Assembly: GCA_025934995.1 (NCBI GenBank)
Contig: JAICWC010000002.1
Span: 1 to 62,010 of the forward strand
Direction: 5' to 3'
From: Thermoleophilia bacterium
GTDB taxonomy: Bacteria; Actinomycetota; Thermoleophilia; Gaiellales; Gaiellaceae
Length of the DNA stretch: 62,010 nt
The notes beneath the pieces were generated by a model that ran no database searches, was not told the origin of the DNA, and worked only from the letters and a program-made list of their open reading frames with translations. Both the position numbers and the translations under genes were made by a program. Shown piece after piece: positions 6,353-34,478 of this stretch (the stretch's first letter is position 1; the number at the start of each line of letters is the position of its first letter).

Positions 6353-6509
6353 CGCCACCACGGGAGCGGAGAGACAAAAGGCGTAGCGAGGCAGGACGAA
6401 CGGACGAGGGTGTGCCCGCGGACGTGTACGACGATACGTGCGTGGAGAGCGGCAGAGGTGCTGCGGGCCGGATCGCGCCCGTCGGGCCGGCCGGCGACGA
6501 GGGCGGCGG

Positions 6510-8357
6510 ATGACGCGCCCTCCGGCGCGGCGCCGGCGCATCGTCATCTATGTCTGGCTGATCGCCGCCCTGCTCGGGCTCAACTACTGGGGCGCGCACC
6601 GCGCCACCGAAGTCCGCCGCGTGCGCGTGCCGTACAGCCCGTTCTTCCTCCGCCAGGTCGAGCGCGGGAACGTTGCGGAGATCGCCTCGCGCGGCACGAC
6701 GATCCAGGGCCGGTTCCGCCATGCGACCGCTGCGAATGCCTCACGACCCGCAACCCTCTTCAGCACCGAGATACCGACCTTCGCGAACACGAACGAGCTC
6801 GCAGGCCTCTTGCAAGCGAAGGGCGTGGAGGTGAACGCGCAGCCGCTCGATACGGGATTGCCGTTGTGGAAGAGCCTCCTCTACGGGTTCGGCCCGACGA
6901 TTCTCTTCCTACTCCTGCTGTTCACGCTCGTCCGGCGTTCGGGGCCCCAGGGCATCCTCGGCGCGCTCGGTCGCTCGGGCGCGCGCCGGTACCGCCACGG
7001 CGGCGCGGGTGTCACGTTCGCCGACGTCGCAGGGATCGACGACGCGAAGCTCGAGCTCGACGAGGTCGCCGACTTCCTGCGGAGCCCGGAGAAGTATCGG
7101 CAGCTCGGCGGCCGAATCCCGCGCGGCGTGCTCCTGAGCGGGCCGCCGGGGACCGGGAAGACGCTGCTTGCGCGAGCGGTCGCCGGCGAGGCCGGAGTGC
7201 CCTTCTTCTCCATGTCGGCGTCGGAGTTCGTCCAGGCGATCGTCGGCGTCGGTGCATCCCGCGTGCGCGATCTGTTCAAGCAGGCGCGGGATGCCGCTCC
7301 CGCAATCGTCTTCATCGACGAGCTCGACGCGATCGGCCGTGCGCGCGGCGCCGGCGCGTCACTCGGAGGCGGTAGCGACGAGCGCGAGCAGACGTTGAAT
7401 CAGATCCTGACCGAAATGGACGGCTTCGACAGCACGGTCGACGTCATCGTCCTCGCGGCCACGAACCGGCCGGACGTGCTCGACAAGGCGCTCCTTCGGG
7501 CAGGGCGCTTCGATCGACGGGTCGTCGTGCAACCGCCGGACGCACGAGGCCGCCGCATGATCCTCGATGTTCACGCGCGGTCGGTGCCGCTCGCCGACGA
7601 CGTCGATCTCGAGCGCGTAGCCGCGAAGACCCCGGGCATGGTGGGCGCCGAGCTGGCCAATCTCGTCAACGAGGCCGCGCTTCTGGCTGCGAGACGCGAC
7701 CGCTCCTCCGTGACGGCGGTGGATCTCGACGACGCCCTCGAGCGGCTCGTCCTCGGCGCCGAACGCAAGATCGTCCTGAGCGAGCAGGATCGCCGGACGA
7801 TCGCCTACCACGAAGCCGGTCACGCGCTTGTCGGCATGTTGACGCCCGGCGCCGATCCGCTCCGGATCGTCTCGATCATTCCCCGTGGGTCGGCCCTGGG
7901 CATCACGTTCTCATCGCCGGATGCGGACCGCCTCAACTACTCGCGCCAACATCTCGACGCGCTTATTCGCATCACACTCGGAGGCAGGGCTGCGGAGACG
8001 GTTGCACTCGGAGAGATCACGACGGGAGCCGAGGCCGACATCGTCCAGGTGACCCGGCTCGCGCGCCACATGGTCGGCCGCTGGGGCATGAGCGACAAGG
8101 TCGGATTGCTCGCCGTGATCGGCAACGGCGACGCTCCGACCGACGGCGACGAATTCGCGCTGTCGACGAGAGAGCTCGTCGATTCGGAGGTCAAGCGTCT
8201 GGTCGAGGAGGCGAACGCCGAGGTGATCGCTCTGCTCCGTTCGGAGCGTCAGCGTCTCGACGCGCTTGCGACTGCGCTGCTCGAGCGCGAGACGCTCGAC
8301 GAGCTCGACGCCTACTCGGCGGCCGGTCTGCCACGCCGAGACCGCGCCGCGGTCTGA
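6510..8357 (+). CDS. ftsH: FtsH-family membrane AAA/zinc protease, variant pore loop
   Basis: A 615-residue membrane-anchored ATP-dependent protease that pulls out and degrades membrane and regulatory proteins. TM1 is at residues 11-28 and TM2 at 125-141, enclosing a small extracytoplasmic domain. The AAA part has Walker A GPPGTGKT (211-218), Walker B IVFIDE (266-271) and sensor motif AATNRPD. The M41 part has zinc site HEAGH (434-438) and a third ligand Asp near 510 in TGAEADI. Two departures from the canonical sequence stand out. The pore loop reads QAIVGVG instead of MFVGVG, losing the substrate-gripping Phe, and the second region of homology reads [10 protein letters not shown], with Ala replacing Pro. 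The start is ATG at 6510, preceded by GAGGGCGG. A second, even more divergent FtsH lies at 32-34 kb. Confidence 0.93.
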
Positions 8358-31263: not shown

Positions 31264-32121
31264 TTACGCGGTTGCAGGATCGAGGACGAGCACCGGCTCG
31301 CCCTGCTGCGTCTGCGAGAGCCCGTACTTGTAGATCTTCGACTCGGTGAGCGCATCGATCCGGGACTGGTCGCGCGCCGTGATCTGGTTCGGCAGCGGCA
31401 CCTTCGGCGCGATCGTCTGCGTCAGGGGGACCTTCAGCTGTGCCTTCAGATCGTCTTTCTGCAGGTAGACGACGTAGGAGGTCGTGGCGCCGGGCGTCGG
31501 CGGCATGAAGGCCACGATTCGCTTCGCCCCCTGGACGTACTTGAACGTGTAGAGCGCCATCTCGAGGATCTCGCGGCGGACGAGCGTCCCGCGCTGCACC
31601 GACGGCTTGCCGGTCGCGATCGAGCACGACTGCCCGAGGCCGCAGAGCGACAACATGAACGTGTCGCTGTTCGTGACCTGCGAGACGTCGTCGACCTTGC
31701 CCTTCGGCCCGCGAACGGCGATCAACGGGATCGGGACCGTCTGGCCGCCCGAGGTGATCGCCGACGGGCGAACGATCACGTCGACGAGCTGATGGCCGTC
31801 CGGCAGCCGGTACGCCGGGGCGACGTGCGACGCGATCTGATTGACGGCCCCGAGGCCGCCTCCGCCCGGCTTCCACGACGACCAGGCGGGCCCGGGGTTG
31901 ATCGTGCGGCCCGCGAAGACGACGAGCCCGACGATCGACGCGGCGAGCGCGAGGCCGAGCACCCCGTAGATGACGAAGAACCGGCGCAGGTGACGGCGCG
32001 CCGGCCTGAGCTCGGGCAGCGTGGGCCGGTCGACGGGGGAGACATCCGGCTTCGTGATGTCGTTCGCCTCGACCGGCTCGACCGCCTCGGCGGTTTCGGC
32101 GGGGGTCAGATCTGTGGCCAT
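31264..32121 (-). CDS. Single-pass membrane protein coupled to the divergent AAA protease
   Basis: A 285-residue protein: an acidic cytoplasmic N-terminus (about 1-45), one membrane helix (VIYGVLGLALAASIVGLVVF, about 50-70) and an extracytoplasmic domain of about 210 residues with strands such as DVIVRPSAITSGGQTVPIPL and SYVVYLQKDDLKAQLKVPL and two cysteines. No family is recognised. Its start overlaps the end of the AAA-protease gene by 16 bp, so they are co-expressed. A role as membrane adaptor or inhibitor of that protease, by analogy with HflK/HflC and FtsH, is an attractive inference without sequence proof. Confidence 0.65.
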   Translation of the reverse strand: MATDLTPAETAEAVEPVEANDITKPDVSPVDRPTLPELRPARRHLRRFFVIYGVLGLALAASIVGLVVFAGRTINPGPAWSSWKPGGGGLGAVNQIASHVAPAYRLPDGHQLVDVIVRPSAITSGGQTVPIPLIAVRGPKGKVDDVSQVTNSDTFMLSLCGLGQSCSIATGKPSVQRGTLVRREILEMALYTFKYVQGAKRIVAFMPPTPGATTSYVVYLQKDDLKAQLKVPLTQTIAPKVPLPNQITARDQSRIDALTESKIYKYGLSQTQQGEPVLVLDPATA

Positions 32122-34478
32122 GTCTCGTCGGCGGTCAGGTCGATTTCCGGCTTCGTCACGGGGATGCTCTTCAGCAGCTTCGTGACGTCGTCGCCGTACA
32201 GCTCGCGGCGCTCGACGAGCACGTCGGCGATCCGGTCGATCGCAGGCTTGTTCGCGGCCATCAGGTGGTACGCACGGATGTACGCCTGGCCGATGATCTG
32301 CGCGGCCATGGCGCGCTTGTCACGGTCGTTGAGCACGCCCTTGATCGGATCGACGTCGTACATGCCGTTGCCGCCCGTTCGATTCATGATCTGGACGCCG
32401 ATCTTCTCGAAGCGCTTCATGATCCGTTCGCGCGTCTCCTCGGCGGTCTCGTCGTCGAACGACTTCGTGATCTGAATCGGCTCCGGCGCCATCGCGGACG
32501 CGCCGACCATGTACGCAGCGAGCTGCGTCGTCGACTGCACGTCGCCGCCGACGCCGTTCGAGTTCTCGCCGTAGAAGACGTGCTCGGCCGCCATCGCGCC
32601 GAGGATCATGGTCAGCGCCGCCATGTCGTCGCTGCGCCAGCGGCTGAACCGCTCCTCCTGCTGAATCCCGTAGAAGTGGCCGAGCGAGCCGCCGCGCATC
32701 CGCACCGACAACCGCGTCGGCTCGATGCGGGTCTGGTAGACGTGCGACGCGAGCGCATGCCCGGCCTCGTGGATGGCCGTGGCGCGCAGCTCGTCCGGCA
32801 CCGGCTCGATGCTGATCGCGGTGCCCGACTCGATCGTCGTCATCGCCTCGACGAGGTCCTGGCGTGAGAAGACGGCGCGCCCGTCGTGCTGCGCGTGCGT
32901 CAGCGCCATCGAGCAGACCTGGTCGATCATCGCCGGCGAGTAGCCGTTCGTCATGCGGCCGATCTCGTCGCGCGCCTCCGGCGTGTCGAGCTCGGGATCG
33001 TGCGCGACCTTGCCGAGGTAGAGATCGAACACGTCGACGCGGTCGTCCTTCGTCGGTGTTCGGAACCAGACGTGGCGCCCCATGCGGCCCGGGCGGACGA
33101 GTGCCGGGTCGAGCCGCTCGATCGGCACGTTCGTCGCGCCGATGAAGTAGATCTGGGCGCCGAGCGGGCGCGGGGGGCGCAGGCGCAGGCTGACGCGGCC
33201 GATCCGGCGCGGAACGATGTACGTCGCGTCGAGGAACGAGTTGATGCGGTTCGTCAGGAAGCGGCGCATGAACGGCGGGTTGTCGATGCCGTCCATGACG
33301 ACGAGCAGCTGGTTCAGCGCCAGCTGGCCCATGCCGCCCATCATTCCGGGGAAGACGCCCTGGTTCACGCGCTCGATCCACCCAGGCGCCGACCGGCGCT
33401 CGGGCGCGCGCAGCTCGAACATCTTGTCGCGCCACTGGCGGTTCTCGATCACGACGTCGCCCGTCGCCTCCATCGCATTGAAGATCACGTCTTCTTCTCG
33501 CGTGCGGCTGTTCCCGAGCGCCTGCCGGCGCATGCCCACGGCGTCGATCTCGTCGATGAAGACGATGCACTGGCCGCCCCACTTCCGCGCGAGCTTCTTC
33601 GCCTTGCGGGCGAGGAAACGCACGATCAGGGCGTCGATGCCGATGAACGTCTGCGCGAATCCCGAGCCCGGGATCGAGACGAACGGCGAGTTGAAGCCCG
33701 TGGCGATCGCCTTCGCGAGCATCGTCTTGCCGGTGCCCGGCGCGCCGAGGAAGAGGAGGCCCCGCTCACGCTTGCCGCCTGCGCGCTCGAACGCTTCGCC
33801 CGACTGCCACAGTGTGACGACGCGGCGCACTTCCTCTTTGGCCTCTTCCTGCCCGCGCACGTCCTCGAGCTTGACGCCCCACTCCGCATCGCCGGGCTCG
33901 TAGCCGCGGATCTGCGAGATGCCCATCAGCATCATCGGGCCCATGAAGATGAGGAAGTTCGCGAGGAACAGGAAGAAGACGACGACGATCTGCATCCAGA
34001 ACGCGCCGCTCTGCGCGAGATGCCCGAACTTGTGCAGGTAGTGCGTCGCGCTACCGAGCCAGCTGACCGAAGTCCCGGCCGGAGAGGTGAAGTACCGGTA
34101 GAGGAACGCGACCGTGATGAAGCCGGCGAAGAGCGCGGCGACGCGGAAGTAGAACCGCCATGTCCACGCGCGCCGCCGGTTGACGACGTCTTCCTCGCGC
34201 AGCCGTGCATCCTCGGTCCCGAAGAGGCTGGGCCAGGGGATCAGGCGGCGGATGAGGAGGTCGACGAGGCCGCGGAACGCGATGATCGTCAGCACGGTCA
34301 CGATCAGCGCCTTCGTGACGCTGAAATGCTCGTCGTTCCGGAAGAAGAAATAGGCCGCCGGGCTCGTCAGGATGGCGACGAACGTGGCGACGCGAGCGAG
34401 CCGGCGCAGCTGCCCTGCGAGCGCGACCGACTCCTGGCTCGAGCGGAGCATCGGGGTCGTTACGTCTGCTGTCGCCAT
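32106..34478 (-). CDS. Divergent FtsH-like AAA/M41 membrane protease with insertions
   Basis: A 790-residue protein with four predicted membrane segments (about 31-46, 56-76, 108-130, 160-188), whereas FtsH normally has two. The AAA part shows Walker A GAPGTGKT (245-252), pore loop TFIGID (277-282) and Walker B VFIDEI (306-311). It carries two extra blocks, about 60 residues after Walker B (about 320-385) and about 40 after MDG (about 398-438). The Arg-finger region reads RPGRMGRH, where FtsH has RPGRFDR. The M41 part has HEAGH (570-574) and a later Asp ligand in GVGGDVQSTT. It should be an active zinc protease with altered regulation. ATG start at 34478; divergent from the M48 protease gene. 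Confidence 0.88.
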   Translation of the reverse strand: MATADVTTPMLRSSQESVALAGQLRRLARVATFVAILTSPAAYFFFRNDEHFSVTKALIVTVLTIIAFRGLVDLLIRRLIPWPSLFGTEDARLREEDVVNRRRAWTWRFYFRVAALFAGFITVAFLYRYFTSPAGTSVSWLGSATHYLHKFGHLAQSGAFWMQIVVVFFLFLANFLIFMGPMMLMGISQIRGYEPGDAEWGVKLEDVRGQEEAKEEVRRVVTLWQSGEAFERAGGKRERGLLFLGAPGTGKTMLAKAIATGFNSPFVSIPGSGFAQTFIGIDALIVRFLARKAKKLARKWGGQCIVFIDEIDAVGMRRQALGNSRTREEDVIFNAMEATGDVVIENRQWRDKMFELRAPERRSAPGWIERVNQGVFPGMMGGMGQLALNQLLVVMDGIDNPPFMRRFLTNRINSFLDATYIVPRRIGRVSLRLRPPRPLGAQIYFIGATNVPIERLDPALVRPGRMGRHVWFRTPTKDDRVDVFDLYLGKVAHDPELDTPEARDEIGRMTNGYSPAMIDQVCSMALTHAQHDGRAVFSRQDLVEAMTTIESGTAISIEPVPDELRATAIHEAGHALASHVYQTRIEPTRLSVRMRGGSLGHFYGIQQEERFSRWRSDDMAALTMILGAMAAEHVFYGENSNGVGGDVQSTTQLAAYMVGASAMAPEPIQITKSFDDETAEETRERIMKRFEKIGVQIMNRTGGNGMYDVDPIKGVLNDRDKRAMAAQIIGQAYIRAYHLMAANKPAIDRIADVLVERRELYGDDVTKLLKSIPVTKPEIDLTADETWPQI

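Follow-up and report, generated by a model that had tools for sequence, protein, structure and literature searches.

An M41 membrane protease with two motor insertions and a co-encoded partner in Thermoleophilia

In a 62,010-nucleotide stretch of contig JAICWC010000002.1 from a Thermoleophilia bacterium (GCA_025934995.1), hereafter the window, we analyzed a gene for an FtsH-like AAA+/M41 membrane protease, P0001, together with the overlapping gene that follows it, P0002. P0001 (32106..34478; 790 residues, ATG start) had been predicted at this position from the sequence alone, and its coordinates proved right; the strand, which had not been given, is minus. P0002 (31264..32121, minus strand) encodes 285 residues. 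We estimate, with a probability of roughly 0.6, that P0001 and P0002 form a two-protein membrane protease in which the partner supplies the external part. Bacterial FtsH has mostly been regarded as a single, uniform housekeeping enzyme, and the family to which P0001 belongs (family A below) differs from it in membrane anchor, motor and gene context. P0002, and three sister families (B, C, and D) found in other classes of the phylum, are additions to the original prediction.

By curated cut-offs P0001 is an AAA+ zinc protease of family M41, and by the NCBI cut-off it is not an FtsH equivalog. Pfam detected an AAA domain (PF00004, E 1.2e-25) and a Peptidase_M41 domain (PF01434, E 3.1e-19, 70 bits against a cut-off of 29.9); the M41 match spans positions 7-118 of a 191-position profile. 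With the NCBIfam equivalog model TIGR01241 (FtsH_fam), P0001 scored 236 bits, below the curated cut-off of 600, whereas two canonical M41 paralogs from the same genome, included as controls, reached 821 and 696 bits. That genome contains five M41 matches in all, and the idea that P0001 could be its housekeeping FtsH was rejected, as one of the others, the second M41 gene of the window (6438-8357, plus strand; the 696-bit paralog, with a weak match to FtsH_ext), is canonical. P0001 itself gave no match to FtsH_ext (PF06480), and of the two canonical controls only one matched, below the cut-off. The AlphaFold2 model of P0001, built with nine sequences, was poor overall (mean predicted local distance difference test score, pLDDT, of 59); its M41 domain was of mixed confidence, with many blocks at pLDDT 70-94 and weak loops between them. 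Foldseek searches with this model returned FtsH, AFG3L2, and Ycf2-FtsHi chains as best matches (best E 2e-22), and a search of defence and phage families returned only generic AAA matches for P0001, mainly to IetA, and none for P0002.

Residue equivalences were taken from an alignment with E. coli FtsH, and conservation figures come from 28 relatives unless stated otherwise; all positions within P0001 and P0002 are on the minus strand. Walker A (GAPGTGKT, 33723..33746) places K251 opposite E. coli K198, Walker B (CIVFIDE, 33549..33569) places D309 and E310 opposite D251 and E252, and pore loop 1 (FAQTFIG, 33639..33659) has the aromatic-x-Gly pattern, with F278 and G280 opposite F225 and G227. 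Sensor 1 (N450) is kept, and so are both arginine fingers, R462 and R465 (33072..33095), which align with R309 and R312. The latter lie in the RPGRMGRH motif that the original prediction had picked out, and its methionine is found in 15 of 16 family A members tabulated, with leucine in the remaining one. The zinc motif HEAGH (32757..32771), predicted to be intact, is so: H570, E571, and H574 align with E. coli H414, E415, and H418, and the third zinc ligand, D646 (32541..32543), with D492. Zinc ligands and catalytic Glu are invariant across the family A alignment. Judging from these residues, P0001 is probably catalytically competent, and its pore loop 1 together with seemingly competent ATPase and protease sites would allow it to work in the manner of FtsH.

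The gene pair recurs across the class. In 249 genomes sampled from the class of P0001, 47 had a family A protease (40 full-length matches, 6 split or shorter, and 1 partial at a contig end), with identities of 51-80% over the full length or long stretches in many genomes. The family was set off by a drop from 1e-38, for a second fragment in G125, a genome already counted among the 47, to 7e-29 for canonical FtsH. A profile of 28 P0002 relatives found the partner, at E <= 1e-12, in 46 of the same 249 genomes, 45 of which were among the 47 with the protease; five more genomes with E values between 1e-4 and 1e-3 were counted as noise. The two genes adjoined on one contig in 44 genomes, and in another (G156) each was found at the edge of its own contig. 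In both protease genomes where the partner was missing (G083 and G221), the protease gene was at a contig end, and in G221 a weak partner match (12.6 bits) was present at that same end. In a sample of 396 genomes from across the phylum, family A was found in only 4, all of P0001's class, and the same 4 held P0002, while 74 further genomes, all from other classes, matched the protease at E <= 1e-35. One contig of a metagenome-assembled genome labelled Burkholderiales also carried both a Thermoleophilia-type protease and its partner, and this genome is probably mis-binned or mislabelled.

P0002 was located downstream on the same strand in 32 of 33 loci, the 33rd being at a contig edge, and the genes overlapped in 30 of these 32, by 16 nucleotides in 23 and by 4 in 7 (L016 had no overlap and L063 was ambiguous). 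In the window the overlap is 16 nucleotides (32106..32121), with the partner's ATG inside the last codons of the protease gene. Across 25 wider loci, no neighbour other than P0002 was kept throughout. The pairing of P0001 and P0002 is thus well supported.

P0002 is predicted to have a short cytosolic tail, a single transmembrane (TM) helix (31918..31974, from model and hydropathy), and an extracytoplasmic domain of about 200 residues. Two cysteines, C160 and C166 (31624..31644), are invariant in 28 sequences; the predicted topology puts them outside the membrane, and a disulfide between them is possible. A motif in the external domain, RRExLELALYT, is invariant or nearly so, and the N-terminal cytosolic tail varies in length and sequence. 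P0002 matched no Pfam (E 0.1), NCBIfam, or PHROGs family, two of its relatives had no Pfam match at E 0.01, and the Pfam search also gave no match to the SPFH/band 7 family of the HflK/C type. Its AlphaFold2 model (mean pLDDT 70.5) found nothing at E <= 0.001 with Foldseek, and the best hit among PDB sequences was a ribosomal protein at E 0.026. A resemblance to a sex-pheromone precursor (VIA best Z 5.0, root-mean-square deviation 3.8, 95 aligned) was not trusted.

These features also bear on another interpretation, in which P0002, instead of acting as an adaptor or sensor, inhibits P0001 or serves as its dedicated substrate, the two making up a regulated-degradation pair. A single helix with a cytosolic tail free to vary, and overlapping genes that are probably translationally coupled, would suit such a role. 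We nevertheless consider it unlikely, as the conserved residues (the two cysteines and RRExLELALYT) are external, which suggests that P0002 functions on that side of the membrane.

The protease itself is probably anchored by more helices than is usual. A review gives one or two TM helices as typical of FtsH (PMC9020784). For P0001, four membrane crossings had been predicted, and four long N-terminal helices were indeed seen in the AlphaFold2 model (residues 15-49, 54-79, 95-131, and 158-188), with low to moderate confidence; a simple hydropathy scan, on the other hand, called just three above threshold, so that four TM helices are likely but not proven. TM1 (residues ~28-49, 34332..34397; 64% column identity) is the one under threshold in P0001, although it is called in relatives such as L034. 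TM2 (residues 54-79, 34242..34319), from model, hydropathy, and alignment, is followed by a basic cytosolic loop, and TM3 (residues 108-131, 34086..34157) and TM4 (residues 158-186, 33921..34007) are predicted from model and hydropathy. Among 33 family A members, the same scan gave four helices in 18, three in 12, two in 2, and five in 1; three or four were thus called in 30 of 33, compared with two in 25 of 28 canonical proteins. The helix positions and the strongly basic TM2-TM3 loop fit a predicted topology with both termini inside and the motor and protease domains in the cytosol.

The original prediction had also described two insertions, of about 60 and 40 residues, between Walker B and the arginine fingers, and both were borne out. 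The distance from Walker B to RPGR is 153 residues in P0001 and ranges over 152-174 among 16 family A members, compared with 58 in E. coli FtsH and 56-61 in canonical FtsH (a range that omits can_L003, L107, L121, L122, and L128, where the automatic motif match failed). The total excess over E. coli is 95 residues, divided between two places. Insertion 1 (residues 319-386, 33321..33524) occupies the site of canonical pore loop 2 (GxGGGHDEREQ) and counts 68 residues between residues 318 and 387, against about 13 in E. coli, a net gain of about 55. Its length between anchors ranges from 67 to 89 residues, and it carries a conserved motif, GDxxxExxxWRxxxFxxR (motif columns 74% identical), as well as a Gly/Met-rich loop beside helix alpha-3. 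This helix and the intersubunit signalling (ISS)-like motif MDGI (residues 387-398, 33285..33320) are strongly conserved, with 92% column identity over residues 387-399. Insertion 2 (residues 400-441, 33156..33281) follows, between the ISS motif and sensor 1: there are about 43 residues after MDG(I/F) in P0001 and about 5 in E. coli, and the insertion is exactly 42 residues long in 28 of 28 relatives, with 67% mean column identity. An alignment artefact was rejected on the grounds of these conserved lengths and motifs, and because families B, C, and D have insertions at both of these sites as well.

Sister families were recognized in 20 of the loci from other classes of Actinomycetota, all of which, when read closely, had enlarged segments between Walker B and the arginine finger (102-140 residues in the 19 loci where both motifs were found automatically). 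L129, L130, and L131 are second readings of L085, L074, and L088. Sorted by motif, family B has EE in Walker B, family C has FFDEAD with HEACH or HEASH, and family D is one protein. The family B motif reads GFIEEIDAI, with Glu for the usual Asp, in all 11 members where both motifs were found (L073, L075, L078, L081, L083, L084, L086, L087, L091, L129, and L130). On TIGR01241, families B, C, and D reached 301, 260, and 330 bits, respectively. In a tree of 63 proteins, built from the 433 alignment columns with an occupancy of 90% or more and so mostly without the insertions (B_L082 and can_L128, partial or lacking motifs, were left out), 35 insertion-bearing and 28 canonical proteins were split at 100/100 support, and families A, B, and C each formed one clade at 100/100. 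The predicted status of P0001 as a distinct M41 subclass was upheld by this split and by its FtsH_fam score, and no named subfamily was found that would take it in, though M41 as a broad family has been well described. The insertions more likely than not arose once, but this is not proven: the joint tree and the shared positions argue for it, while the tree program warned that long branches meet, and in quick trees with one family at a time A, B, and C attached to different canonical branches, with weak support, both of which weigh against it.

Could P0001 then be an ordinary FtsH paralog with fast-evolving loops, in which the role is housekeeping, the insertions are neutral, and the downstream gene is merely co-transcribed? 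Its canonical catalytic motifs and the coexistence of several M41 paralogs in these genomes would agree with this. Against it, insertion 2 is more conserved than TM3 or the external loop, the gene pair is maintained where other neighbours change, and both the 100/100 split and the FtsH_fam score, far under those of paralogs from the same genome, set the protein apart; we regard this explanation as quite improbable. A third possibility is that the motor serves mainly as an unfoldase or translocase, like that of Ycf2-FtsHi in chloroplasts, and that its proteolysis is weak or specialised. Ycf2-FtsHi chains are indeed among the better matches, and the C-terminal M41 part has diverged, with the limited Pfam coverage given above; but P0001's family shows no variation in its zinc ligands or catalytic Glu, whereas the FTSHI 1 chain is named as probably inactive, and we regard this possibility as very improbable.

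The two-protein reading, which we prefer, would work as follows. P0001, an M41 protease on four membrane helices with motor and protease in the cytosol, would form a hexamer and act with P0002. Like FtsH, it would thread its substrates, proteins in or bound to the membrane, through the pore and into the M41 chamber. P0001 appears to have no room for the external domain that FtsH holds between its two helices, and P0002, with one helix and an external domain of some 200 residues, may supply that part in trans, most likely selecting or sensing substrates or the state of the envelope. Substrates of FtsH-type proteases are gripped by pore loop 1, and the ISS motif (DGF in YME1L) reports the nucleotide state between neighbouring subunits; the pore loop 2 of AFG3L2 contains four inserted residues, which bring F421 close to the substrate and into contact with M683 in the protease domain, and substitution of either residue impairs degradation (PMC12994072). 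By analogy, insertion 1 might enlarge pore loop 2 at the motor exit toward the protease chamber and extend the motor-protease contact. A substrate gate of its own, as the original prediction had suggested, would be anatomically reasonable for P0001, since the site of insertion 1 is precisely that of pore loop 2, the loop that in AFG3L2 touches the protease entrance (PMC12994072). Insertion 2, of fixed length beside the ISS motif, may touch the neighbouring subunit or its nucleotide site and would probably tune coupling. The pairing is the best supported of these steps; gating and sensing are guesswork based on the anatomy.

Several observations weigh against this reading. Physical contact between P0001 and P0002 is something we infer. 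The partner evolves fast, with a mean column identity of 29% compared with 61% for the protease, and its fold has no confident match among solved structures, so that we cannot claim that it resembles the external domain of FtsH. P0002 relatives also occur apart from the protease: G223 encodes a secreted relative (L097 4282-5316, minus strand), standing alone next to open reading frames resembling ABC transporters, with no family A protease detected, and G185 has, besides a normal pair elsewhere, a second partner-like gene (L103, G185:C148) with no adjacent protease. Finally, the insertions are not resolved in the poor model, insertion 1 being modelled at pLDDT ~25-40. A bolder version, in which the Actinomycetota hold a separate M41 branch whose extracytoplasmic sensing part was split off into a co-encoded partner and whose pore loop 2 grew into a motor-chamber gate, making a two-component protease open to switching from the outer side of the cell membrane, is offered tentatively, and we think it more doubtful than the two-protein arrangement as such.

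Compared with known systems, P0001 shares with bacterial FtsH (TIGR01241; E. coli) the AAA motor with Walker A and B, the F-x-G of pore loop 1, two arginine fingers, the HEXXH plus Asp zinc site, and a membrane anchor. It differs in having four predicted helices, apparently no large external domain between helices, a pore loop 2 and an alpha-3/beta-4 loop that are together longer by about 95 residues, a score below the FtsH_fam cut-off, and a partner gene of its own. The m-AAA and i-AAA proteases (AFG3L2 and YME1L) have the same AAA-M41 layout and the ISS motif, and AFG3L2 is also extended in pore loop 2, but by four residues and not the ~55 of P0001; in the part of PMC12994072 available, no counterpart of the second, 42-residue element is described for either protein. 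The plastid Ycf2-FtsHi complex is likewise a divergent, FtsH-derived membrane motor and, FtsH and m-AAA aside, gave some of the best matches by both sequence and structure, but its FTSHI 1 is recorded as a probable inactive protease, whereas the zinc site of P0001 is intact. As for the partner, HflK/HflC are membrane proteins with a large extracytoplasmic part controlling FtsH (PMC9020784), and in this they resemble the role proposed for P0002, which differs in its ~285 residues, in the absence of an SPFH/band 7 match, and in a gene that overlaps that of the protease. Searches of one open-access library, which leaves out subscription journals, gave no paper on these proteins, no account of these insertions in actinobacterial FtsH and nothing on FtsH in Thermoleophilia.

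Families B, C, and D (e.g., L084, L076, and L072) resemble P0001 in both insertion positions and in keeping the M41 site, and no credible P0002 match was found near their genes in the 20 loci (best E 0.69). Family B differs from A in its one or two helices (by hydropathy) and in the EE of Walker B. Family C has three or four helices and mostly HEACH, and its gene is often preceded by one for a lipoprotein. Of 7 loci, 4 (L077, L079, L080, and L088) share a homologous upstream gene that ends at or near the protease start, a lipobox was found in those of L077, L080, and L088, and L089 has a similar lipobox protein at the same place. This lipoprotein could possibly represent a second pairing with an external partner. 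A relationship between it and P0002 had no support (profile comparison probability 0.3%). A further family C protease, from Nonomuraea gerenzanensis (L163 1739-4951), keeps the same insertion positions and M41 site and has additional hydrophobic segments and a long C-terminal tail rich in Pro and Ala; its record, of 11.85 Mb, is listed as a plasmid but is chromosome-sized, and the plasmid collection otherwise gave three weaker matches. In viral contigs, a search with A5 returned 22 loci, whose best segments all ended by query residue 157, about residue 336 of P0001 and just beyond Walker B.

Divergent from the P0001 gene, the window encodes an M48 metalloprotease with a CAAX-protease N-terminal domain (PF01435, PF16491; 34502-35593, plus strand). 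An M48 gene was present in six of the 25 wider loci, corresponding to five genomes besides the window, of 24 read (L036 and L043 belong to one genome). In E. coli, HtpX and FtsH are associated in membrane-protein quality control.

Taken together, family A is genuine and conserved, a branch of a familiar group of proteases that seems not to have been described before and that has a partner gene of its own; it most likely works like FtsH and is not a new kind of system. Our analysis puts names to the gene pair of a family that scores under the cut-off of NCBI's FtsH model, and hints at a similar pairing, with a lipoprotein, in family C. Probably anchored by four helices, enlarged in pore loop 2 and paired with a candidate external partner, P0001 and its relatives would provide a natural experiment on gating and trans-membrane signalling in AAA proteases.

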